Source of the DNA: Paenibacillus sp. FSL K6-1330
GTDB taxonomy: Bacteria > Bacillota > Bacilli > Paenibacillales > Paenibacillaceae
Direction of reading: 5' to 3'
Length of the DNA stretch: 64,000 nucleotides
Assembly (NCBI RefSeq): GCF_037976825.1
Contig: NZ_CP150269.1
Location: forward strand, 951,001-1,015,000
Translations under genes and position numbers: made by a program
Notes under the pieces: generated by a model
What the model was told of the DNA's origin: nothing
The model's database searches: none
What the model saw: only the letters and a program-made list of their open reading frames with translations
Part shown: in pieces, positions 606 to 61,552 of the stretch
Position numbering within the stretch: position 1 is the first letter of the stretch
Layout: each line of letters opens with the position of its first letter

Positions 606-680
606 GATCCGCGTAGTTTCTGCAGCGCGGATTTTTTTGCGAGAAAAACTTCATCTAAACGCGGTCTGTCTTCTATGGAT
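606..680 (+). repeat. structured repeat element, copy 1 (degenerate)
   Basis: The stem ATCCGCG (607-613) pairs with CGCGGAT (626-632) and is followed by seven T residues, so it can act as the terminator of the hydrolase gene. Directly after it comes the core GCGAGAAAAACTTC (639-652), then TAAACGCGGTCTGTCTTCT (656-674). The same core follows a different hairpin at three other places in this window (56361, 60507, 60624). This copy lacks the final ACGTC-GATA-GACGT hairpin. Confidence 0.6.
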
Positions 681-4215: not shown

Positions 4216-5262
4216 TCAAGGTTGAGAGAGATAATAAGCATATTCCAATGGTCTACTATAAATTTTGCGTTTTATACTTTTAAGGTCTTTGTATATATTT
4301 TTTTGGGGTTTTCCGTTAAGTTCAATAATCCATAACTCTCTTTGCTCGTCTAACACAAAATCGACGCTCAATTCTCCCAATGAACCCATATGAATGTCTG
4401 CTTCATGTGCGGCCGTTACACTTACCTCATACAGAGATCGGAGGATTTTATTCATTTTCTCCGGCGAAAATAATCGCGGAAGAATTTCTGAAACTTCATA
4501 AATGCTTTCACACATACTCGTGTTAAAGTAATGTTCATAAGCCACTCTACATGTAATGATGGAAACCGTCCATTCTCCAAGAATATCTTTTTGAACAAGG
4601 ACCCGGATATCAAAATACTGATGATCAAATTGACTCATATGGATCCCTTGCTGAACCATGTATTTCGTTAGTCCGAGAAGTTTATCCAATTTTTCCTGAA
4701 TGCTTTCGTTTTTTCTGCAAATATATCTTGGAGCCAAGCTGTGCAAAGAGATGTGAATATCTCCATTATCCGTTAGTTCAACCCGATACACAGACTTCCC
4801 CTTAGATCCGTATAAAGGCTTAATGTATAGTAGTTTATATTTCTCTAATAGTTCTGATACATTCACTTCATTATATAAAAATGTGTCCGGCACATAAGCT
4901 TTAAGATCTGACTGTTGTAATAGGTTATAGAGATCCCATTTATTAAAAAAATTGATATTGTTGAAACATTTGTTTCTACCAATCGCCTTCTCTAGTCGTT
5001 GAATGGTTATTAATTTTTTGTTAAAACACCGGTTATAGACCACATGAGGAAATGGGAACGAACTTTGTTTCCATATGCCCTTTTTCAGGCTAAGTCCAAT
5101 AATACGTTGTTCATCCCAAAGAATATCTGCCGGTGTAAAGGCGTAAAGTTTCAGGTTTAGATTGTGATAACGTTCATAAAGCTCCAAAATTCTTTTTCTG
5201 CTGTTCCTTTTAGCTACCAGAATACCTATTAAAGGGCCATTCTCCAATCTCATCACTCCCAT
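4216..5262 (-). CDS. YheC/YheD-family endospore coat-associated protein (ATP-grasp)
   Basis: The product (348 residues from the longest start) matches the YheC/YheD family. GPLIGILVAKR opens the protein, VVYNRCFNKK lies near residue 75, and an ATP-grasp core follows (KLLYIKPLYGSKGKSVYRVE, then DIRVLVQKD and LGELSVDFVLDEQRELWIIELNGKP). Family members are associated with the spore coat; their reaction is not established. The start is uncertain: ATG 5262 and ATG 5253 have poor sites, while TTG 5247 lies 6-8 bases after GGAGTG. The gene is clearly more AT-rich than its neighbours, as is the collagen-like gene it diverges from. Recent acquisition of the pair is possible. Confidence 0.85.
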   Translation of the reverse strand: MGVMRLENGPLIGILVAKRNSRKRILELYERYHNLNLKLYAFTPADILWDEQRIIGLSLKKGIWKQSSFPFPHVVYNRCFNKKLITIQRLEKAIGRNKCFNNINFFNKWDLYNLLQQSDLKAYVPDTFLYNEVNVSELLEKYKLLYIKPLYGSKGKSVYRVELTDNGDIHISLHSLAPRYICRKNESIQEKLDKLLGLTKYMVQQGIHMSQFDHQYFDIRVLVQKDILGEWTVSIITCRVAYEHYFNTSMCESIYEVSEILPRLFSPEKMNKILRSLYEVSVTAAHEADIHMGSLGELSVDFVLDEQRELWIIELNGKPQKNIYKDLKSIKRKIYSRPLEYAYYLSQP

Positions 5263-5451
5263 GACTTCGATATCTCGTATTATCTAATGCCATCAGAGAC
5301 ATAATGCTATGGGACAAGAGCATAGGTGAACAGAAAATCAGCGATTGTAGTGCTCTATTTGCCTATATTTTCAGTTGATAGGTATTTGCCGTGTTTACCT
5401 TTTTAAGCTTTTAATATGATAAATTACTTTTGATAACAGGGAGATGAGACC

Positions 5452-9132: not shown

Positions 9133-10101
9133 GTGATGAATCGGATGATCTGGCGAACGCCCTTGAGGCTGTTTGCGAAAATTTTATCAGCTGCGTTGAT
9201 GGTATTTTTGATTTATGGCATGTATTATTCAGCCGCCTACATATATCATGAACAATCCGGCCTGAACGATAAATTCTTAAGGTCTGTCATGACAACGGTT
9301 GAATTGCATGAGAGTGGACTTATAGTAGATAAACGAAGCTCGCCTTTGGGTGAAGTGACGCCCTTCCTCACTCAGAAGACAAATCTGAAAGTGTATAAGA
9401 ATGTGGGGGAATGGCAGGTAATTGTCGGAGAGCTTCACGCGAAGAAGCAATTAGGGGGAAAACTGACGTATTCTATTGAGGAACTGAATCCTTATTTGAA
9501 TCGTGAGGAAAGAAATCCTTATATCCTGAACTCTGCGCTGCTGGAGGGTAGGGAGATTAAAGACGATCCTCACCCTACTGGTGCAATGAACCAGTTAGGG
9601 AGACTTGAAGACGGAAACGTAGCGGAATTATTCTTCTCGCTTCGAACGCTTAGGTCACCGGAGGAGGTCTTGGAGCTCTTGTCGGACTATGACGTTAAAG
9701 CAACCAGTATGGCTGTTTTTGCAGGAGAACTGAAGGATTTCAAGCTGGGTACTTATAGCTCTAGCGGCGCAGATTACACGATCCCACATCTCACATTGAG
9801 GCCCAAGGTTCAGTTTAGCGATAATCATTTTCTTTCAAGTTGGCATACTTTCTTCTCACAGGATGACGGGATAACGGATCATGTGCAGCAACTGATCGCC
9901 GACGTTGAATGGATGACCAACAATATCAAATATAACGGTGTGGATGATGACAAACGCCGGCTGGCCTACTTGAAGAAAAATGGAGTTCAAGTTTACGGAG
10001 CGACCGTTACCGGACCTGTGCGGGAGTTGGAGAAGCTGAAGGAGGAGCAGGAATTTTGGGAGTTCCGTTTGGGCCGGATCGAGGTATGGAATTGGAGTTA
10101 A
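9133..10101 (+). CDS. anti-sigma-factor-like membrane protein (Sigma_reg N/C type)
   Basis: The 322-residue protein has a short cytosolic head, one membrane helix (about 14-36, ILSAALMVFLIYGMYYSAAY) and a large extracytoplasmic part. That part resembles the sigma-factor-regulator N and C domains of YhdL-type anti-sigma factors (YILNSALLEGREI, then AELFFSLRTLRSPEEVLELL). The start is probably GTG 9133 or ATG 9136: the truncated copy at 6950 has a 1-nt change between the upstream ATG and this GTG, so codons before GTG are not conserved. Unlike YhdL there is no zinc-binding motif in the head and no sigma-factor gene beside it. It is therefore an orphan, probably under an ECF-type promoter. Confidence 0.7.
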   Translation: MMNRMIWRTPLRLFAKILSAALMVFLIYGMYYSAAYIYHEQSGLNDKFLRSVMTTVELHESGLIVDKRSSPLGEVTPFLTQKTNLKVYKNVGEWQVIVGELHAKKQLGGKLTYSIEELNPYLNREERNPYILNSALLEGREIKDDPHPTGAMNQLGRLEDGNVAELFFSLRTLRSPEEVLELLSDYDVKATSMAVFAGELKDFKLGTYSSSGADYTIPHLTLRPKVQFSDNHFLSSWHTFFSQDDGITDHVQQLIADVEWMTNNIKYNGVDDDKRRLAYLKKNGVQVYGATVTGPVRELEKLKEEQEFWEFRLGRIEVWNWS

Positions 10102-16793: not shown

Positions 16794-17849
16794 TTGGCAT
16801 CCATTGAATTTGTGAAAGTAAGCAAGTCGTTTGATCGTCAAACCGTTATCCAGGACCTGGATCTTACCATCGAAGACGGAAAATTCACCGTGCTGGTCGG
16901 TCCGTCAGGATGTGGAAAAACAACGCTCTTAAGGATGATTGCAGGCATTGACCCTCAAACCTCCGGTTCCGTTCTTATCAATGGCAAGGATGTTACGCGA
17001 ATTGCACCGGGGAAGCGCGGCGTGGCCATGGTGTTTCAGAATTACGCAATCTACCCAACGATGTCGGTTCGCGAGAATATCGAGTTTGGTCTCGTGAACA
17101 ACAAGGTTCCCAAAGCAGAACGCACACGTCTGGTGGAGACCATAGGGGCAACCGTGGGACTGAACGATTACTTGGATCGTAAGCCTTCTACCTTGTCTGG
17201 CGGACAACGGCAGCGAGTGGCTTTGGCCCGGGCGATGGTTAAGGATCCGTCCGTATTCCTGATGGATGAGCCGCTGTCCAATTTGGATGCCAAGCTGAGG
17301 GTTCAGATGCGGATCGAGCTGATTGAACTGCACAAGAAGCTGGGAACGACCTTTGTCTATGTGACCCATGACCAAATCGAGGCGATGTCGATGGCAGATA
17401 CCATCGTGCTTATGAACAAAGGCGTCATTCAGCAGGAAGCGCAACCTGAGGTGGTGTACCGCGAGCCTAGCAATCTGTTTGCGGCCCAGTTTATCGGGGT
17501 TCCTCCCATGAACATTGCGCCGCTGGGCGACGACCGCACTACATTTGGATTCCGTCCGGAGAGCGTTGTGATCGGCACAGAACCGGAGTCGTTTCATTAT
17601 ACGACCAAGGGTGAGATCATCACGCGCGAAATGCTGGGCTCCGAGACAATTTATCAGGTAAGGACGATGGAGGGCCAGGCCTTCATGGTGAAGTGCCAGG
17701 ATGACAAATTTCATGTCGATCAGGAGGTATATCTCGGCGTGCCGGCGGATAAATTGTTTTTCTTCGGGGCGGATGAGAAGCGGGTCGCAGAGCAGGACAT
17801 CCGCTATAGGGAGTTTATGGAGCGGCTGAGAGGGCTGGCTCATGGATAA
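16794..17849 (+). CDS. ugpC: ABC transporter ATP-binding protein, UgpC/MsmX type
   Basis: The 351-residue ATPase energises uptake by the two permeases that follow. Walker [10 protein letters not shown] is at about 37-45, the signature [15 protein letters not shown] near 135, Walker [13 protein letters not shown] near 155 and the H-loop THDQIEAMS near 190. A C-terminal TOBE/OB region (about 240-350) is typical of carbohydrate importers. TTG 16794 follows AGGGGGAT. It overlaps the next gene by 8 bp. Operon order (C-A-E-B, phosphodiesterase, G1P dehydrogenase) points to glycerol phosphate or glycerophosphodiesters as the cargo. Confidence 0.9.
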
Positions 17850-18720
17850 GAAGCGGATTTGGGAAGGGATCAGGCCCTATGTGCTAATCGCGCCGGCCAT
17901 GGCGGGTATCATGCTGTTTGTGATGTATCCGGTAGGTTATCTGATTTACTTAAGCCTGTTCAAATACAACCTGATGAACAAGGATAAGAGCAAGTTTGTC
18001 GGACTGGACAATTTCACCCAGATTCTGGGTCGCGGGGATTTCTACAAAGCGTTATGGAACACTTCCATCTATACAGTCGGCGTCGTGATTCTAACCATGC
18101 TGCTGTCCCTGTTGATTGCGGTGTGGCTGAACAAGAAGGGCCGTTTCAATTCGGTCGTTCAGGCTGGGATTTTCACACCGCACGTCGTTTCCATTGTATC
18201 GATCTCGCTGGTCTGGCTGTGGCTGATGGAGCCGAATCAAGGACTTCTCAATTATCTGTTCAAGCTGGTGGGGCTCCCGCCGTCCGCATGGCTGCAAAGC
18301 TCCAAGACCGCATTGATATCCGTCATTATCGTATCGGTCTGGCAGGCCATCGGTTATTACACCCTGATTATCGTTGCGGCCCTGCAGAGCATATCGCCAA
18401 GCATTTATGAAGCGGCGGCGCTGGATAATGCCAGCAGGTTCAAGGTGTTTTATAAAATCACATTGCCGATGATTTCGCCGCAGCTGTTTTTTATCCTGAT
18501 CATCATGACGATCGGTTCCTTCAAAGTATTTGATACCGTTCAGGTGATGACAGGCGGAGGACCGAATAATGCAACGACCACGCTTGTGTATTACATATAC
18601 GGCTTCCGAACGACCAACATCGGTTATTCGGCTGCGACAGGCGTCGTGCTCATGGCCATTATCGGACTGCTTACGTTCATCTATTTCCGGCTACTGTCCA
18701 AGAAGGTCCATTATCAATAA
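17842..18720 (+). CDS. ugpA: ABC transporter permease, UgpA type
   Basis: The 292-residue inner-membrane subunit has six hydrophobic segments, starting VLIAPAMAGIMLFVMYPVGY. The EAA loop (YEAAALDNASRFKVFYKITL, about residues 190-210) docks on the ATPase. The family is MalF-type permeases of carbohydrate uptake transporter 1. ATG 17842 lies inside the end of the ATPase gene, so the two are translationally coupled. It pairs with the downstream UgpE-type permease. Confidence 0.9.
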   Translation: MDKKRIWEGIRPYVLIAPAMAGIMLFVMYPVGYLIYLSLFKYNLMNKDKSKFVGLDNFTQILGRGDFYKALWNTSIYTVGVVILTMLLSLLIAVWLNKKGRFNSVVQAGIFTPHVVSIVSISLVWLWLMEPNQGLLNYLFKLVGLPPSAWLQSSKTALISVIIVSVWQAIGYYTLIIVAALQSISPSIYEAAALDNASRFKVFYKITLPMISPQLFFILIIMTIGSFKVFDTVQVMTGGGPNNATTTLVYYIYGFRTTNIGYSAATGVVLMAIIGLLTFIYFRLLSKKVHYQ

Positions 18721-54996: not shown

Positions 54997-56259
54997 ATGG
55001 ATCGATCCTATCATTTTAGCCATCCGGGCGCTCTCTTTTGGCGAAGGGTAACCGCTCATTGGAAGAATCAACGCGATAATCTGGCAACCGTGGTCGACTG
55101 GATCGTGATGCTGTACATCATTGTTCCGGGTCTGCTGCTGGGAGGCGGGCTCTACCGCGAGTTATGGACGAGCCCGCTTCCCGGATGGGCACAGTTCTTC
55201 CCGCTGCAGGCGGTGGTAGGCATCCTGCTCTTTATGTTCTCCGGTAGAGTGCTGCTGTTCCTGGAAGAGGCTGACGTGTTGTTTCTTCGGCAGCAGGGGG
55301 GATGGATGAAGGGCTTAATGATCAGAGGCATGGTATACAGCCATACGGTCTCAGCAATCAAGGGATTGGTCGTTACAGTGCTTGTGCTGCCAATCCTGGT
55401 CAGGGAACATGGGATAACCGGTATTGTTCTGGTGACCTTGCTGATGATTACAGTTGTATGCGCCTGGTGCGCGAATCTATTAACCGCTATGATTCGTTCC
55501 AGCTATAAAGGCTGGCGGAAACATGTGCTGACTTATATCGTACGCTGGCTCTCATTCGGACTGCTGGCACTGCTTGTTACATTTTGGCTTGAGTCCTACG
55601 TTGTACTGTGGGCAGCTTCCTTGATTCTGCTCTTGGTGCTGTTTCTTCTTAGCCGCAAGCGTCTTGCCATGCAAGGGACCTTCATCGCAGATGCGCGTGA
55701 GGATGCGAAGACAAGGATCCAGTTGACGGAGAAGCTGCTCATTCAAGCTGTCGGTAAACCTCCCAGCGTACGAAGTAAAACCTGGTTTATGCGCAAGTCC
55801 GGCCGGTTGTTCAAAGGTACGGCGGAGAAGAGGCTTGCCGATGCGGGGTTAAAGGCGATTTTGCGCCACTCTGAGAGCTTATTATTATATATTCAGATTA
55901 CGCTGGTCGGCATCCTGGCCGTCTGGCTGCCGCCGACGATCATCAAAATCATCGTATATCTTGCTCTGGTATTGATGATGTCATATTGGCTGAATACAAG
56001 GTGGGCATTGTTCGCCAAAGCCGAATTTATGCAGGTGCTCCCGTTTACGAATCAGCAGCATCGTTCGGCTGGTGTTCTCGCGGTCCGAACCTTACTCGCT
56101 CTTCCCGCCTTTCTTTATTCGCTCATGACAGGGCTAACGCTTTTACAAGGGGGAATGGGATGGCTCGCCGCGCTTGTATTGACTGTGCTGGCTGTCATGG
56201 TCGCGCCCTCGCTCATGTCCTGGCCGGTCTACAAGGAGGAGAGACACCCGCAAGAATAA
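54997..56259 (+). CDS. ecsB: ABC transporter permease EcsB
   Basis: The 420-residue permease has an N-terminal SHPGALFWRRVTAHWKNQRD typical of EcsB, and about ten hydrophobic helices. A cytosolic loop (about 215-275) contains AREDAKTRIQLTEKLLIQAV. ATG 54997 follows GGGAGGTGATG; an in-frame ATG two codons earlier is too close. It forms the membrane part of the EcsAB transporter and is ended by a terminator at 56263-56314. Confidence 0.9.
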   Translation: MDRSYHFSHPGALFWRRVTAHWKNQRDNLATVVDWIVMLYIIVPGLLLGGGLYRELWTSPLPGWAQFFPLQAVVGILLFMFSGRVLLFLEEADVLFLRQQGGWMKGLMIRGMVYSHTVSAIKGLVVTVLVLPILVREHGITGIVLVTLLMITVVCAWCANLLTAMIRSSYKGWRKHVLTYIVRWLSFGLLALLVTFWLESYVVLWAASLILLLVLFLLSRKRLAMQGTFIADAREDAKTRIQLTEKLLIQAVGKPPSVRSKTWFMRKSGRLFKGTAEKRLADAGLKAILRHSESLLLYIQITLVGILAVWLPPTIIKIIVYLALVLMMSYWLNTRWALFAKAEFMQVLPFTNQQHRSAGVLAVRTLLALPAFLYSLMTGLTLLQGGMGWLAALVLTVLAVMVAPSLMSWPVYKEERHPQE

Positions 56260-56262
56260 TAA

Positions 56263-56314
56263 AAAGCGCGCTGGAATGCTCCAATGGATGGGGCATACAG
56301 CGCGCTTTATTTTA
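56263..56314 (+). terminator. terminator after ecsB
   Basis: AAAGCGCGCTG (56263-56273) pairs with CAGCGCGCTTT (56298-56308), followed by ATTTT. Confidence 0.85.
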
Positions 56315-56315
56315 A

Positions 56316-56423
56316 GATATCAGAAAGTATAAACTTCGAAGCTTGTGACTTCCTGATATCGCAAGAAAAACTTCCTCTAACTGCGGTCTGTCATCTGTGA
56401 GAGTACGTCGATAGACGTTTTTC
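56316..56423 (+). repeat. structured repeat element, copy 2
   Basis: GATATCAGAAAGT (56316-56328) pairs with ACTTCCTGATATC (56348-56360) at 12 of 13 positions. The core GCAAGAAAAACTTCC begins immediately after, continues CTGCGGTCTGTC and ends ACGTC-GATA-GACGT-TTTT (56404-56421). It lies between the ecsB terminator and the converging flavoprotein gene. The stem sequence differs entirely from copies 3 and 4 apart from its GATAT end, yet stays paired. Confidence 0.7.
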
Positions 56424-56426
56424 TTA

Positions 56427-57701
56427 TTATTTGTTTATCACTGCGACTTCGGCTGCATGCTTGCCTGCCGTATAACCGGTTGCAAAAGCGGCCGTAATAT
56501 TGTAACCGCCGGTGTATCCGTGAATATCCAGAATTTCACCACAGAAGAAGAGCCCGGGCATCAGCTTGGATTCCATGCTTTTGGGTTGGACTTCCTTGAG
56601 GCTGACGCCGCCGCCTGTCACGAAGGCCTCCTTCAGCGAACGGGTGCCCGAAGCGCGGAACGTGAACTTTTTTAGAATGGAGGCAAAGGTTGTCAGCGCC
56701 GTTTTGGAGATACCGCTGCAGATCATGTCGCTGTCGATGGACGACTTGGATAGCAGCAGGGGGATCATTCGTTCCGGCAGCATGCCCTTGAGCACGTTTT
56801 TGATGCTCTTTCTTGGCTCATCCTCCAGTCGCCATTTGAGCTCGGCCTCAAGCTCCGCTTGGGAGCGGTCGGGGAACATATCGATGCCCATGTCCACATT
56901 CACGATATCAAACTTCCGCTGCACCTGGCGGATGAACTGACTGCAGCGCAGCGCGATCGGACCGGACACTCCGAAATGGGTGAACAGCATATCTCCCCGG
57001 TGGGCAATCACTTTTTTTCCTTTCGGATTCCAGACGGACAGCTCAACATCCCGCAGTGACAAGCCCTGCAGCTCTTTAGAGGCAATAAAAGGCTCGGTGG
57101 AGACGATAGGCACTTCAGTTGGATACAGCTCCGTGATGGTATGTCCTGCCGCCTCAGCCCATGGATAGCCGTCCCCCGTGGAACCGGTTTGAGGCACGGA
57201 TTGTCCACCCGTTGCAATAATCACACAGGAAGACTTGATTACTTCCCCGGATTTCAGTTCGACCCCGGCCGTCCGGCCGTTCGCATAGAGAACGCTCTTC
57301 ACCGGACTGTTTGTCCGGATACCGGTACCAAGCTCCTTCACTTTGCCAATCAAGGCATTCACAACGCTCGAGGCTTTATCCGTCACAGGAAACATGCGCC
57401 CGTTGTCCTCTTCTTTGAGGCGAATGCCAAGCCCCTCAAAAAAAGACATGATATCCTTGTTGTTCCAATGCTGAAAAGCACTATATAAGAAACGGCCGTT
57501 TCCCGGGATGTTGGCAATCAATTCATCCTGTTCTTTGGCGTTCGTCACATTGCATCTTCCGCCGCCCGATATGCCAAGTTTACGGCCCAGTTTATCTCCT
57601 TTGTCGATTAGCAGAACGGAAGCTCCTCTTTCCCCTGCAGCAACGCAGGACATCAATCCGGAAGGTCCGCCGCCGACGACAATAATATCATAATCAAGCA
57701 T
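56427..57701 (-). CDS. HI0933/BaiN-family NAD(P)/FAD-dependent flavoprotein
   Basis: The 424-residue flavoprotein starts with the FAD dinucleotide fold [20 protein letters not shown]. It has the family motif [18 protein letters not shown] (about 38-56), a second motif [20 protein letters not shown] near 165, and the C-terminal [20 protein letters not shown]. Members reduce unsaturated substrates such as bile-acid intermediates or modify RNA; the native reaction here is unknown. ATG 57701 opens the gene. Confidence 0.9.
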
Positions 57702-57830
57702 GTTTGCTCATAGCTCCTTTGGGGGTATATCAATTAATAGATGAATCTTATTATATAGGATATTTGCGAATTATCCCAAACCTCATGAAAAGGACACAGG
57801 ATGGAGTTTCCCCAGGCTTCGAATGAGAAA

Positions 57831-57869
57831 TTACAATATATTGTAATATGATGTCGCCTATGCTTTAAT
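57831..57869 (+). promoter_or_regulatory. palindrome overlapping a promoter upstream of the kinase gene
   Basis: TTACAATATATTGTAA (57831-57846) is a perfect 16-bp palindrome. Its right half supplies a -35, TTGTAA (57841-57846). TTTAAT follows after 17 bp (57864-57869) as -10. A repressor bound to the palindrome would cover the -35. Confidence 0.5.
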
Positions 57870-57912
57870 CAGAAATATTAGATGCGTTGTCCAATTGAGG
57901 TGATCGATCGCT

Positions 57913-59637
57913 GTGCTGAGCCTATGGAAAGATATTTTGCTGCAAGTTTTGCTGTCTGGTACACTCATCTTTCATCTGCCGCTTCTCCTCGACAGACATC
58001 TAAAGTGCCTGAACAAGAAGAATCCGGATGATCTGCTTCGCTTTCGCCAACATATTGTCATTGCATGCGGAATCAGTACTGTATTATGCGTCTTGATCTC
58101 GGCTATGAACGATTATTACGTTCCGATCCATCTTGGCGTAATCCCGTTATTTTTAGGCATATTATATGGAAGTCGGCGTTCAGGTCTATGTCTTGCAGCT
58201 ATATATATCACAAGCTATGGGCTGATGAACGGCTGGTCCACGATCGGCCTCATTCTGTATATGCTGGTTCTAGGGTACTCGCTATTACCCTGGATTACCT
58301 CCAATTTCAAGAAAGGCTCCATGACCGAAAAGATTTGTTGGCTGTGGAGCGCGCTTATTCCGGCTATGCTGATTATTGTAGCCTCCCACGCGATTGAAGG
58401 AAAGGTTAACCAGTATGCTCTGAATCCGGATACGATTCTGATAACCATTCTGTATATGCTGATCGGTATTTTTTATTCTGGAATGATTGTGTACTGGATC
58501 GAATTAACATGTGAGCGCCTAGGCGCAGGTCAATACGATGTGAAGGTCAAAGAGTGGTCATCTTTAACAAAAATGATGGAGATGATTCCTTTAGGAATGG
58601 TTGCGGTGGATCGAAGCGGCAATATCATTGCCTTTAATCAACCGCTTATCCGCAGCTTTCGAAACGTCTTTCCTAATCTGACGACCAAGGATGTCATCGG
58701 CAGACCATTATTTGACTTATTGGACGGCATGATTCAAAAGGAGCATCTGCGCAGCCGGTTTCAGAGAGCTATGGATGGAATCGAAAGCACCGGCGAGATT
58801 ATGCGAAGCGCTACCCGGGTGTATTCCACCGGCATCTATCCACTTATACATAATGGGAACGGAGACATCTTGGGTGCGGTAGGAGTTATGGAAGACATTA
58901 CGGAGCTGGAGAGGCTTCGCACGGAATTTATGAATGTAGAGCGTTTAAGCTTGGTTGGCCAAATGGCGGCAAGTATTACCCATGAGATTCGCAATCCGAT
59001 GGCTGTCGTGCGCGGATTTTTGCAGCTGATGCAGGAGAAGAGTCCTGATACGCTGGACCATTATTACCGGATCGTCATGGAGGAGCTTGATCGGGCCAAC
59101 GGTATCATCAGCGATTTTTTATCCCTCGCCCAAAACCGGGTGGCAGAAAAAGAAGAGTGTCACCTTCATGACATTATCCATGAGCTCAATCCGCTCTTGT
59201 GGGCCGACGCGAATTTGCGCGGACAGAGCATTGAGCTGAAACTCGGAACCGAAATTCCCCATCTGTACCTGAATACCAAGGAAATGAAACAGCTGATTCT
59301 GAATTTATGCCGAAACGGGATGGAGGCTATGGACGATAAGGGAACGTTGACAATTGAAACTCGGATGGAAGGAGATCGGGCGCAGCTGTACGTTGCGGAT
59401 ACCGGAATCGGCATCTCGGAGAATGAGCTGGAGCGCTTGTTTGAACCATTCTTTACGACGAAGAGCAAGGGAACGGGGCTTGGACTCGCCCTGTGCATGA
59501 GCATTGTACAGCGTCATCATGGAACCATTGATGTGAAGTCGAAGCTTGGCGAGGGAACGGTTTTCATTATTTCTTTTCCTCTTCACTCGTACCCGCAAGG
59601 TTTGCCGGAATCCCAGAGCGCTGCCGCTTTCGAATAA
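57913..59637 (+). CDS. membrane sensor histidine kinase with PAS domain (KinB-like)
   Basis: The 574-residue kinase has six membrane helices in residues 1-200 of the LytS/KinB 5TM type (VIPLFLGILYGSRRSGLCLA). A PAS domain follows (about 218-335, MEMIPLGMVAVDRSGNIIAF), then HisKA (ASITHEIRNPMAVVRGFLQL, His about 362) and HATPase (VADTGIGISENELERLFEPF, GTGLGLALCMSI). No response regulator is adjacent, which suits a phosphorelay kinase that feeds Spo0F at the onset of sporulation. GTG 57913 follows GAGGTGATC. Confidence 0.88.
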   Translation: MLSLWKDILLQVLLSGTLIFHLPLLLDRHLKCLNKKNPDDLLRFRQHIVIACGISTVLCVLISAMNDYYVPIHLGVIPLFLGILYGSRRSGLCLAAIYITSYGLMNGWSTIGLILYMLVLGYSLLPWITSNFKKGSMTEKICWLWSALIPAMLIIVASHAIEGKVNQYALNPDTILITILYMLIGIFYSGMIVYWIELTCERLGAGQYDVKVKEWSSLTKMMEMIPLGMVAVDRSGNIIAFNQPLIRSFRNVFPNLTTKDVIGRPLFDLLDGMIQKEHLRSRFQRAMDGIESTGEIMRSATRVYSTGIYPLIHNGNGDILGAVGVMEDITELERLRTEFMNVERLSLVGQMAASITHEIRNPMAVVRGFLQLMQEKSPDTLDHYYRIVMEELDRANGIISDFLSLAQNRVAEKEECHLHDIIHELNPLLWADANLRGQSIELKLGTEIPHLYLNTKEMKQLILNLCRNGMEAMDDKGTLTIETRMEGDRAQLYVADTGIGISENELERLFEPFFTTKSKGTGLGLALCMSIVQRHHGTIDVKSKLGEGTVFIISFPLHSYPQGLPESQSAAAFE

Positions 59638-59692
59638 ACAGATTGGTAATTAGGCATCATAAGGCAGAGCTTAGGGTAAAGGAGGGATTCGG

Positions 59693-59806
59693 ATGAGTAA
59701 AAATGATTCCAAGCAACAAGAGCAGCAGGAGCGTGAAAACAAAGATCGCCGTGGTGAGCCCATCGTTGACAAGAAAAAAGATGGGGTAAACTATCCTGCT
59801 ACCTAG
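59693..59806 (+). CDS. 37-residue hydrophilic peptide gene
   Basis: ATG 59693 lies seven bases after AAAGGAGGG and opens 37 codons (MSKNDSKQQEQQERENKDRR, ending DGVNYPAT). The product is charged, Gln/Glu/Lys-rich and probably disordered, like small spore or stress peptides; I do not know its family. A 15-bp hairpin terminator follows directly (59826-59871), which supports a separate short transcript. Confidence 0.65.
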   Translation: MSKNDSKQQEQQERENKDRRGEPIVDKKKDGVNYPAT

Positions 59807-59825
59807 TTCAACCAATGGAACATGA

Positions 59826-59871
59826 AAAACGGGCGGTATCCTATTTTGTGATGCTGCTCGTTTTGTATTTT
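59826..59871 (+). terminator. 15-bp terminator after the peptide gene
   Basis: AAAACGGGCGGTATC (59826-59840) pairs with GATGCTGCTCGTTTT (59850-59864) through Watson-Crick and G-T pairs, followed by GTATTTT. Confidence 0.75.
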
Positions 59872-59960
59872 CTTGCTTTCACTCTTTAGGATTGTATAAT
59901 ATAGATATCGATGAGCTGTTATAATTCGAACAATCTTGTTTATATAAGGAGTGAAGAGTT

Positions 59961-60395
59961 ATGGGTATGTCTTTTGACCGATATATGCGCGATATGGTTC
60001 AACCGATGCGGGATGAGCTGACCAGCTTGGGAATCAAGGAACTGACAACACCTGAAGAGGTAGAGGAAGTTCTTCCTACAGCGAAAGGTACAACGCTGGT
60101 CGTTGTAAACTCCGTATGCGGCTGCGCAGCAGGGCAAGCGCGTCCTGGTGTAGCCATAGCGCTTGAGAACCAGGTGAAGCCGGATCAATTGTTTACCGTG
60201 TTCGCCGGACAGGATAAGGAAGCAACGGCTAAAGCACGTGAGTATTTTGCTCCGTATCCTCCATCCTCCCCATCGATTGCTCTGTTGAAGGACGGGGAAT
60301 TGGTGCACTTTATTGAGCGTCATCAAGTGGAGAATCGTTCTGCAGAAGAAATCGCGGCGGATTTGACCGACGCATTCAATCGCTACTGCCAGTAA
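59961..60395 (+). CDS. bacilliredoxin, BrxA/BrxB family
   Basis: The 144-residue thioredoxin-fold protein carries the family's Cys-Gly-Cys active site in VVVNSVCGCAAGQARPG (about residues 48-64). It removes bacillithiol from S-bacillithiolated proteins in the cytosol. YFAPYPPSSPSIALLKDGEL and HFIERHQVENRSAEEI are conserved in YphP/YqiW. ATG 59961 follows GGAGTGAAG. It is monocistronic, with a terminator at 60411-60452. Confidence 0.95.
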   Translation: MGMSFDRYMRDMVQPMRDELTSLGIKELTTPEEVEEVLPTAKGTTLVVVNSVCGCAAGQARPGVAIALENQVKPDQLFTVFAGQDKEATAKAREYFAPYPPSSPSIALLKDGELVHFIERHQVENRSAEEIAADLTDAFNRYCQ

Positions 60396-60410
60396 TCCGG
60401 CAGTTACATA

Positions 60411-60452
60411 GGCCCCGAAGCATTCGGCATATTCCGAAGCCGCGGGGCTTTT
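60411..60452 (+). terminator. terminator after the bacilliredoxin gene
   Basis: GGCCCCG pairs with CGGGGC(T) around a CGAAGCATTCGG-containing loop, followed by TTTT. Confidence 0.8.
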
Positions 60453-60458
60453 GTTATA

Positions 60459-60570
60459 GATATAGAATTTATAAGTTATCTAGCTAAGCTGATGAAATTC
60501 TATATCGCAAGAAAAACTTCCCGCTAAATGCGGTCTGTCTTCTGAGGAAGTACGTCGATAGACGTTTTTA
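60459..60570 (+). repeat. structured repeat element, copy 3
   Basis: GATATAGAATTT (60459-60470) pairs perfectly with AAATTCTATATC (60495-60506). The core starts at 60507 (GCAAGAAAAACTTCC). Within it CCGC pairs with GCGG, ACTTC with GAAGT, and the end is ACGTC-GATA-GACGT-TTTT (60552-60569). It is the first of two head-to-tail copies with a 117-bp period. Confidence 0.75.
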
Positions 60571-60575
60571 TTATA

Positions 60576-60687
60576 GATATAGAATTTATAAGTTATCTAG
60601 CTACGCTGATGAAATTCTATATCGCAAGAAAAACTTCCCGCTAAACGCGGTCTGTCTTCTGAGGAAGTACGTCGATAGACGTTTTTC
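60576..60687 (+). repeat. structured repeat element, copy 4
   Basis: It repeats copy 3 with two visible substitutions (loop CTAAGCTG to CTACGCTG, and TAAATGCGG to TAAACGCGG). Neither disturbs the stems. It ends 55 bp before nadE, so its terminal hairpin could affect nadE transcription. Confidence 0.75.
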
Positions 60688-60742
60688 TTTTATCAATGAA
60701 GTACTTCAGAAAGAGAGAACATACTGAAAGGAGTCATATATC

Positions 60743-61552
60743 ATGAGCCTACAAGAACAAATTATCGCAGAGCTGGGTGTCAAACCTACCATTAATGTGG
60801 AGGAAGAGGTACGCAAGCGCGTTGACTTTCTGAAAACCTATGTAAAGAACTCGGGCACTTCCGGACTGCTGATCGCCATTAGCGGCGGGATTGATTCGGC
60901 CGTGGCTGCCGGTCTGTGCAAGCGGGCCACCGATGAACTCACGGAGGAGATTGGCAAGGAATACAAGACACTCGGGGTGTTCCAGCCATACGGCGAGCAG
61001 GCTGATATTTCAGACAGCTATGCGACAGCGAAGGCCTTCGATTTGAAACATACCGTCGAGACGAATATCGAGGAAACGGTGAACGAAATAGCTTTGGAGG
61101 TTGAGCATGGCCTGAAAAATATCGGGGTCCATAAGCATATGAGTATTCCGGGTAAAGGCAATGTGAAGGCCAGAGTGCGTATGGTGGTACAATATGCGCT
61201 GGCATTCGAGCAGAATTTGATCGTGGTCGGTACGGATCATGCTTCCGAGGCGATTACCGGCTTCTATACCAAGTGGGGTGATGGAGCAGTGGACATTACG
61301 CCGCTGAGTTCCTTGAACAAGCGTCAGGTTCGTATGCTTGCATCCTATTTAGGAGTTCCGAAATCGATTCTGGATAAAGCCCCTTCTGCCGGCCTTTGGG
61401 AAGGTCAAACAGACGAGAAAGAGCTCGGAATCAGCTACGAGGATAACAGCGATTACCTGGAAGGTAAGACAATTGATCCTGATGTTCAGCAGAAACTCGA
61501 GAGTTATTACGTCAAAACCGCACACAAGCGCAATACGATTCCAGGCATCTAA
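60743..61552 (+). CDS. nadE: ammonia-dependent NAD+ synthetase
   Basis: The 269-residue enzyme amidates deamido-NAD+ with ammonia and ATP. The ATP-pyrophosphatase loop is LLIAISGGIDSAVAAGLC (about 41-58). Further family segments are IPGKGNVKARVRMVVQYALA, VVGTDHASEAITGFYTKWGD and TPLSSLNKRQVRMLA. The C-terminal region has GLWEGQTDEKELGISYEDND-like residues. The length equals the short, glutaminase-less form. ATG 60743 follows GAAAGGAG. The repeat elements lie just upstream. Confidence 0.96.
   Translation: MSLQEQIIAELGVKPTINVEEEVRKRVDFLKTYVKNSGTSGLLIAISGGIDSAVAAGLCKRATDELTEEIGKEYKTLGVFQPYGEQADISDSYATAKAFDLKHTVETNIEETVNEIALEVEHGLKNIGVHKHMSIPGKGNVKARVRMVVQYALAFEQNLIVVGTDHASEAITGFYTKWGDGAVDITPLSSLNKRQVRMLASYLGVPKSILDKAPSAGLWEGQTDEKELGISYEDNSDYLEGKTIDPDVQQKLESYYVKTAHKRNTIPGI

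Follow-up and report, generated by a model that had tools for sequence, protein, structure and literature searches.

Palindromic elements derived from insertion sequences (IS) of the IS200/IS605 type and the repetitive extragenic palindromes (REPs) linked to REP-associated tyrosine transposases (RAYTs) insert without duplicating their targets; they are small, end in hairpins, show strand-oriented insertion at a short sequence and form arrays. These traits are shared by the subject of this work, a repeat of ~110 bp, here simply the element, which occurs as three full copies and one decayed relic in a 64,000-nucleotide stretch of Paenibacillus sp. FSL K6-1330 (positions 951,001 to 1,015,000 of contig NZ_CP150269.1, or C1:951001-1015000 of the 7.43 Mb, single-contig genome G000; hereafter, the window). 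As in Y1 transposase derivatives, there is no target duplication and insertion is on one side of a short motif, but the element differs from IS200/IS605 and REP/RAYT elements in that it combines two unlike hairpins in one ~110 bp unit and that the Y1 family does not track its presence. A REP survey deals with smaller tagged palindromes, describes families tagged GTAG or CGTC, and does not name Paenibacillus in its main text (PMC3733652); the element is not a 20–40 bp palindrome with an unpaired tag of this kind, as it has no GTAG and its CGTC is paired inside the terminal stem.

Miniature inverted-repeat transposable elements (MITEs) are likewise non-coding, dispersed and non-autonomous, but the element has neither their long terminal inverted repeats nor a target-site duplication. 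The bcr1 repeat of the Bacillus cereus group duplicates a TTTAT target, its mobilizer is not known, and we know of no terminator targeting by it. Both bcr1 and the element are small structured Firmicutes repeats with traits of mobile elements, yet they differ in sequence and in size, bcr1 measuring 147–167 bp in a table of PMC2267715 compared to ~110 bp here. Group IIC introns insert behind intrinsic terminator hairpins (PMC4424553), and the element sits in the same kind of place; these introns, however, are ribozymes several hundred bases long that come with a reverse transcriptase, whereas the element matches no Rfam family, contains no gene and has different ends. Searches of the open-access literature, preprints excluded, for the core sequence, Paenibacillus repeats, MITEs, terminator-targeting repeats and bcr1-like elements returned no description of it, and we rate it as a small non-autonomous mobile repeat of a known kind with an unusual target. 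We find that the element very probably represents a family of non-autonomous mobile elements whose folding is under selection and which target terminators or T-runs.

The element consists of a first hairpin, a GC linker and a second helix that encloses a small terminator hairpin, with the parts arranged 5′ to 3′ as 1–3 A/T bases, hairpin 1 (~45 bases), the linker, an A-rich arm AAGAAAAACTTC, a small CCGC/GCGG hairpin kept by many copies, the terminal hairpin ACGTC-GATA-GACGT and the right end TTTTTCTT, which makes the element finish in a terminator-like hairpin with a T-run. The second helix is formed by pairing of AAGAAAAAC in the A-rich arm with GTTTTTCTT at the right end; because these are complementary, the 3′ half can adopt either one enclosing helix or a free terminator, and single-sequence folding returns one or the other depending on the copy. 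All copies in the window lie on the + strand. The single full copy spans 56314..56426 (AA, 56316–56425, then A, with the end A's ambiguous by one base), with hairpin 1 at 56316..56360 (arms GATATCAG/CTGATATC), the linker GC directly before the conserved A-rich arm at 56363..56374, the terminal hairpin at 56405..56418 and, at 56417..56425, the right end, which serves as both the terminator T-run and the pairing partner of the arm. A tandem pair follows, copy 1 at 60459..60572 (hairpin arms GATATAGAATTT/AAATTCTATATC) and copy 2 at 60576..60689, coming after the T-run of copy 1. A first-pass annotation of this DNA had proposed four sites, at 606, 56316, 60459 and 60576, each with a hairpin followed by a fixed core, and had recognized no named RNA family; the core GCRAGAAAAACTTC is indeed present exactly at 639, 56361, 60507 and 60624, no Rfam family matches the window at gathering thresholds, and the hairpin directly before the core and the ACGTC-GATA-GACGT-T5 end are found at the last three sites, which are full copies. 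Since 60459 and 60576 form one tandem pair, they do not count as independent evidence.

The fourth site tells a different story, as the stem ATCCGCG/CGCGGAT, taken in that annotation for the element's own, is the terminator of the upstream gene (607..638, + strand; stem 607–613/626–632, then a T-run), and what follows at 639..679 (+ strand) is a relic of the core. Behind the matching terminator, genome G087 carries an intact element that includes a hairpin 1 (GATTATTGAATTT...; locus L193, ~9146–9257), which rules out an element stem at 606 and indicates that both hairpin 1 and the 3′ half have been deleted from the copy in the window; both G000 and G091, a genome of the same species, retain ~45 bases of core. 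At another site the orthologous copy is complete in G091, lacks the right end in G000 and is reduced to 42 bases in G087. Old copies thus decay at the sites compared.

Comparison of filled and empty sites in relatives by BLAST establishes that the copies are insertions. The target at 56316 is the intrinsic terminator of an EcsB-like gene (56263..56313, + strand; stem 56263–56273/56298–56308, T-rich tail to 56313), and in G091 the same terminator carries no insertion (L154), reading GCGCGCTTTTATTC|ATTATTTG, whereas G087 holds three tandem copies there, GCGCGCTTTTATTC|AAGATATTAG...TTTTTCTT|ATGATTTAC; G060 has two copies and G061, G004 and G056 have none. The tandem pair lies behind the intrinsic terminator of a disulphide-isomerase-family gene (60412..60455, + strand), in the gap before an NAD-synthase gene. 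Both the window and G091 have two copies in this gap, which holds none, with nothing inserted behind the terminator, in G087, G061, G056, G004, G002, G019, G006 and further relatives (L131–L139), G060 being set aside as its contig ends at the gap. At a third site G087 carries an insertion that G000 and G091 lack. The edges had been proposed as places to look for target-site duplications, which most MITEs have; at these empty and filled sites there are none beyond one ambiguous base, a single A that can be assigned to either side (0–1 bp).

We then asked what lies in front of the copies more generally, starting from 125 unique full copies in Paenibacillus loci and removing later array copies (by motif), copies with <58 bases of flank and orthologous duplicates, which leaves 71 left flanks for scoring. 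Of the 71 insertions, 45 have a hairpin of ≤−12 kcal/mol ending immediately upstream of the element, compared to 29 of 156 runs of T5 or longer and 19 of 150 random window positions; in G180, a genome rich in near-identical copies, this holds for 9 of 11 fetched loci. Most copies therefore lie, as group IIC introns do, behind intrinsic terminators. At ≤−8 kcal/mol the counts are 50/71, 56/156 and 58/150, respectively; a scoring at ≤−10 kcal/mol with only a few fixed window lengths, which gave 43% for 72 insertions compared to 15% for T-runs and 12% for random positions, is superseded by the 71-flank scoring. A run of at least four T's is found within the last 14 bases before the element in 60 of 72 insertions, and in 10 of 11 in G180. 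With open reading frames of at least 100 codons called automatically, the 3′ end of the upstream gene, on the same strand, faces the element in 55 of 68 loci with callable genes on both sides, and where the genes on both sides of a gap are co-directional, 36 copies share their direction and 7 oppose it. The copies thus follow T-runs, which in most cases belong to intrinsic terminators, and usually point in the direction of the upstream gene.

The pairing itself appears to be selected. Over the 25 proposed pairs, 45 diverse Paenibacillus copies give a covariation score, computed without tree correction for relatedness, of 0.137, compared to 0.078 after shuffling (0 of 500 shuffles as high), while pairings slid along the same alignment score at most 0.037. 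In hairpin 1, five of the six outer pairs show changes on both sides, and two stem positions vary independently so that all four combinations, GAGATAAG, GATATCAG, GATATAAG and GAGATCAG, occur with their complements; copies labelled as coming from outside the window's genus have different yet paired stems (AACATCAGA/TCTGATGTT, AGTATCGG/CCGATACT, GTTTAAGAA/TTCTTAAAC, GATGAAAGG/CCTTTCATC), with co-changes likewise in the terminal hairpin and in the arm/right-end pair, and with poorer hairpin 1 pairing in L333–L335. The claim of changed but paired stems in the first-pass annotation is therefore borne out by the wider family, although one of the three stems it offered belongs to a host terminator.

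The A-rich arm and the right end also change together (AAGAAAACC/GGTTTTCTT, ATGAAAAGCTTC/GAAGCTTTTCTT, AAAAAGGCTTC/GAAGCCTTTTTT). Stem pairing was also compared between copies: of 29 hand-picked diverse copies (from the 33 in the wider set, with L324, L334, L043 and L067 left out), 22 pair with themselves at ≥8 of 9 positions, compared to 2 of 682 combinations with swapped arms and 9 of 1450 after shuffling; this test uses a fixed 9-base arm with re-optimized partners, and swapped arms differ at ≥3 places. Two other sets of shuffles, one of them on the wider set, select the arm that pairs best within the element, which biases them upwards, and this affects the terminal-hairpin figure of the wider set most. 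RNAalifold on the whole alignment recovers only hairpin 1 and the terminal hairpin (9 pairs) and does not find the outer stem, which is nearly invariant inside Paenibacillus, with no pair changed on both sides; support for it comes mainly from the wider set, where own pairing of 0.837 lies narrowly above 2000 shuffles (maximum 0.806). One-sided changes number 43 G-U versus 34 A-C cells when one pair of columns, mostly A-C and not a true base pair, is excluded, and 43 versus 66 when it is counted. This little preference for G-U suggests that selection may act on folded DNA as well as RNA, and the 43:34 ratio is not decisive enough to single out selection on RNA specifically.

The element is widespread. 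The G000 genome has 33 exact core matches; allowing ≤2 mismatches gives 91 forward and 108 reverse matches, hardly above a reversed-pattern control (85 and 106), and only exact or near-exact matches are thus informative. A covariance model finds 82 matches in G000 at E ≤ 1e-4 and 114 at E ≤ 0.1, with 150 of 1570 candidates scored and with reverse-strand echoes in arrays among the weaker matches. Across the order, where at most 13 candidates per genome were scored, 168 of 296 genomes and 23 of 48 genera have the element at E ≤ 1e-4; across the class it is found in 32 of 299 genomes, 15 of them outside the order, in four families. As the E-values are rough owing to a short calibration, we read the sequences themselves: 19 higher-scoring loci from 8 of these 15 genomes have the same order of parts, and by eye 17 of the 19 have at least four T's directly before the element, one of these T-runs belonging to a preceding copy. 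An exact, longer core pattern, searched in a collection of named genomes that may omit the window's own record, falls in Paenibacillus in 64 of 64 stretches, including P. lautus, P. rhizosphaerae, P. mangrovi and P. cellulositrophicus. Pattern counts differ widely within the genus (58 in G014, 23 in G000, 14 in G005, 0 in G001). A plasmid collection has matches only in Paenibacillus records of 0.5–2.7 Mb, with 15 element places on one plasmid of 897 kb. Carriage by phages or viruses is rejected, since a phage collection has no match to the element and viral contigs have none to three exact element patterns.

Copies in G180 are near-identical at 11 fetched loci with different flanks, apparently the result of a recent burst. 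Tandem units are spaced 110–117 bp apart, and one array (L020) contains six copies of types A-A-B-A-B-A. The two copies at 60459 and 60576 are 97.4% identical to each other within G000 and 95.5% within G091, compared to 93.0–94.7% identity with their orthologous copies, which suggests that arrays grow and homogenize by recombination after a first insertion. Two further observations concern the layout of copies in G000. At E ≤ 1e-9 and counting each array once, 39 of 48 loci are oriented away from coordinate 1 in both halves of the chromosome (a hand count that assumes the origin to be near coordinate 1), which gene orientation bias alone may explain. An array of a diverged subtype lies at L019:~835-1200 (G000:C1 near 2509400), and beside it, on the other strand, AAGAAAAACTTC/GAAGTTTTTCTT form a perfect inverted repeat whose interior differs.

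How would such an element move? The absence of a duplication, the preferred strand, the T-run target, the two hairpins and the guide-like arm, complementary to the right end and, being rich in A, to T-runs, point to single-strand insertion resembling that of IS200/IS605. The element may move as a folded single strand, with the A-rich arm AAGAAAAAC acting as a guide predicted to pair both with the element's right end GTTTTTCTT and with the target T-run, and with an enzyme supplied in trans that would cut behind this T-run. As the element finishes in a terminator T-run, each insertion would re-create the target, so that tandem pairs could arise and recombination could multiply them. We propose this single-strand, guide-pairing step only tentatively, at somewhat below even probability. 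Insertion is probably nearly neutral for the host, since it takes place downstream of a completed gene and supplies an additional terminator. The most extended form of the proposal, a family spanning the Bacilli in which an A-rich guide pairs with the T-run, the element carries its own target terminator and the enzyme is of a type new to such elements, we regard as rather doubtful.

Several observations weigh against a mobile, terminator-targeting element of this description. Twenty-one of the 71 insertions lack even an upstream hairpin of ≤−8 kcal/mol, so that a T-run alone may suffice, and at this laxer threshold the controls also score often (56/156); flanks with no clear hairpin are mostly T-rich, and the T-run thus seems to be the minimum. 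Where copies are nested in another small repeat, the junction is CTTCGTG|ATC and not a T-run, a gene's 5′ end lies upstream in 13 of 68 loci, and two copies overlap an open reading frame. In IS200/IS605 elements the left guide lies between the cleavage site and the hairpin, whereas the A-rich arm of the element lies behind hairpin 1. Searches for Y1 transposase, reverse transcriptase (RVT_1) and IS110 in chosen element-rich and element-poor genomes identified no mobilizing gene, and G061 and G005, each with many copies, have none of the three detected. The partial hits did not reveal any obvious element carrying cargo genes.

These searches report the present residents of a genome and not the genes that were there when copies moved. 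Y1 transposase is found in 13 of 32 and 7 of 16 genomes, RVT_1 in 21 of 32 and 10 of 16, and IS110 in 24 of 30; none tracks the element, and none is supported as an obligatory partner. The element does not form the ends of Y1 elements in 30 Y1 loci (L221–L250, ~1.5 kb on each side, one partly masked), of which only L226 holds copies, adjoining the IS and not serving as its ends. A parent element with cargo was also considered: 8 of 36 partial hits, when read, proved to be deleted copies or fused arrays, whether or not a contig ended there, in a screen that covered the later loci for element parts only in part. Beside these results, G180 (L281–L291) has 17 IS110 transposase matches, many of equal score, and a Y1 transposase locus of the same genome has an Rfam STnc490 match on the − strand (L307:1876-1993; 59.5 bits, cut-off 56).

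The main rival to transposition as folded DNA is an RNA route: transcription of the element would stop at its own terminator, and a reverse transcriptase of the group IIC intron type, acting in trans, would copy the transcript into the gap behind another terminator. This route owes its rank to the fact that group IIC introns choose the same kind of site (PMC4424553). G000 itself offers an example, a group II intron (Rfam group-II-D1D4-3) whose insertion point follows a terminator, at L254:~800-1150 (G000:C1 near 2694261) as ...GGCTGGTTTGTTTTCATT|GTGCG. Such a GTGCG start is typical of group II introns. The terminator-like hairpin at the end of the element would also provide the defined RNA 3′ end that this route needs. 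The element is, however, far too short for a group II ribozyme, and the group II catalytic core (domain V and others) has no Rfam match in the window, although the introns of L254, L301, L303 and L304 were detected in the same way. Moreover, RVT_1 was not found in copy-carrying G087, G061, G005, G064, G056, G037 and G030, where it may have been present in the past, while G012 and G306, with 18 and 16 RVT_1 matches, have one element match each. Together with the weak G-U preference, this makes an RNA route improbable.

A MITE of an ordinary DDE transposon, moving by cut and paste with terminal inverted repeats and target duplication, would also be small, non-coding and dispersed with an AT-rich target, and the ends of the element do carry AAGA/TCTT; it is nonetheless highly unlikely, given no duplication beyond the shared A, no long terminal inverted repeats, a preferred orientation to the target and no related autonomous element in the loci fetched. 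Equally unlikely is spread with no transposase at all, by recombination and replication slippage between T-runs and hairpins, which fits the apparent growth of arrays by recombination (A-A-B-A-B-A) but not the near-identical copies at 11 differently flanked G180 sites, which need copying to new places. A structured RNA useful to the host and selected at each site, be it a small RNA, 3′ untranslated region element or attenuator, would account for the conserved core, covarying stems and terminator-like end, yet it is most improbable, as one site differs between two genomes of one species, orthologous copies lose the hairpin or half of the element and so decay, the pattern counts vary widely inside the genus, host terminators stand directly in front of copies, and the flanking genes share no theme, either in two plasmid stretches or in the window, where the five are EcsB-like, HI0933-like, a histidine kinase, a disulphide isomerase family member and NAD synthase. 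A sigma-70 scan of 56200–60760 agrees: on the strand of the element nothing promoter-like lies within or next to the copies, the one such site inside the tandem pair is on the opposite strand (60599–60570), and there is no excess overall (5 sites versus a shuffle mean of 6.3). Among the interpretations offered in the first-pass annotation, a small RNA thus finds no support, while a dispersed, mobile repeat with selected pairing and its own terminator hairpin does.

For a mobile element, a terminator is a safe place behind a finished gene. To our knowledge few mobile elements use terminators, group IIC introns being the example; the present family does so with ~110 non-coding bases and carries its own target. 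The apparently recent burst in G180 makes its mobility directly testable. In Paenibacillus and its relatives the element adds terminator-like or tandem hairpins to many 3′ regions and so affects annotation, the reading of RNA-seq data and small-RNA prediction.

A second small repeat, ~180 bp long without an insert, came to light in the same loci. Its ends are GTGCGTGTTCAAAAAG...CTTTTTGAACAACCTCT, and by eye most copies have 4 bp A/T-rich target duplications. It is found at L042:~772-1092, L043:~795-1096, L044:~683-1096 and L075:~4911-5291, with empty forms at L165:~979-1165 and L189:~17764-17950, and several of its copies hold the terminator element inside.

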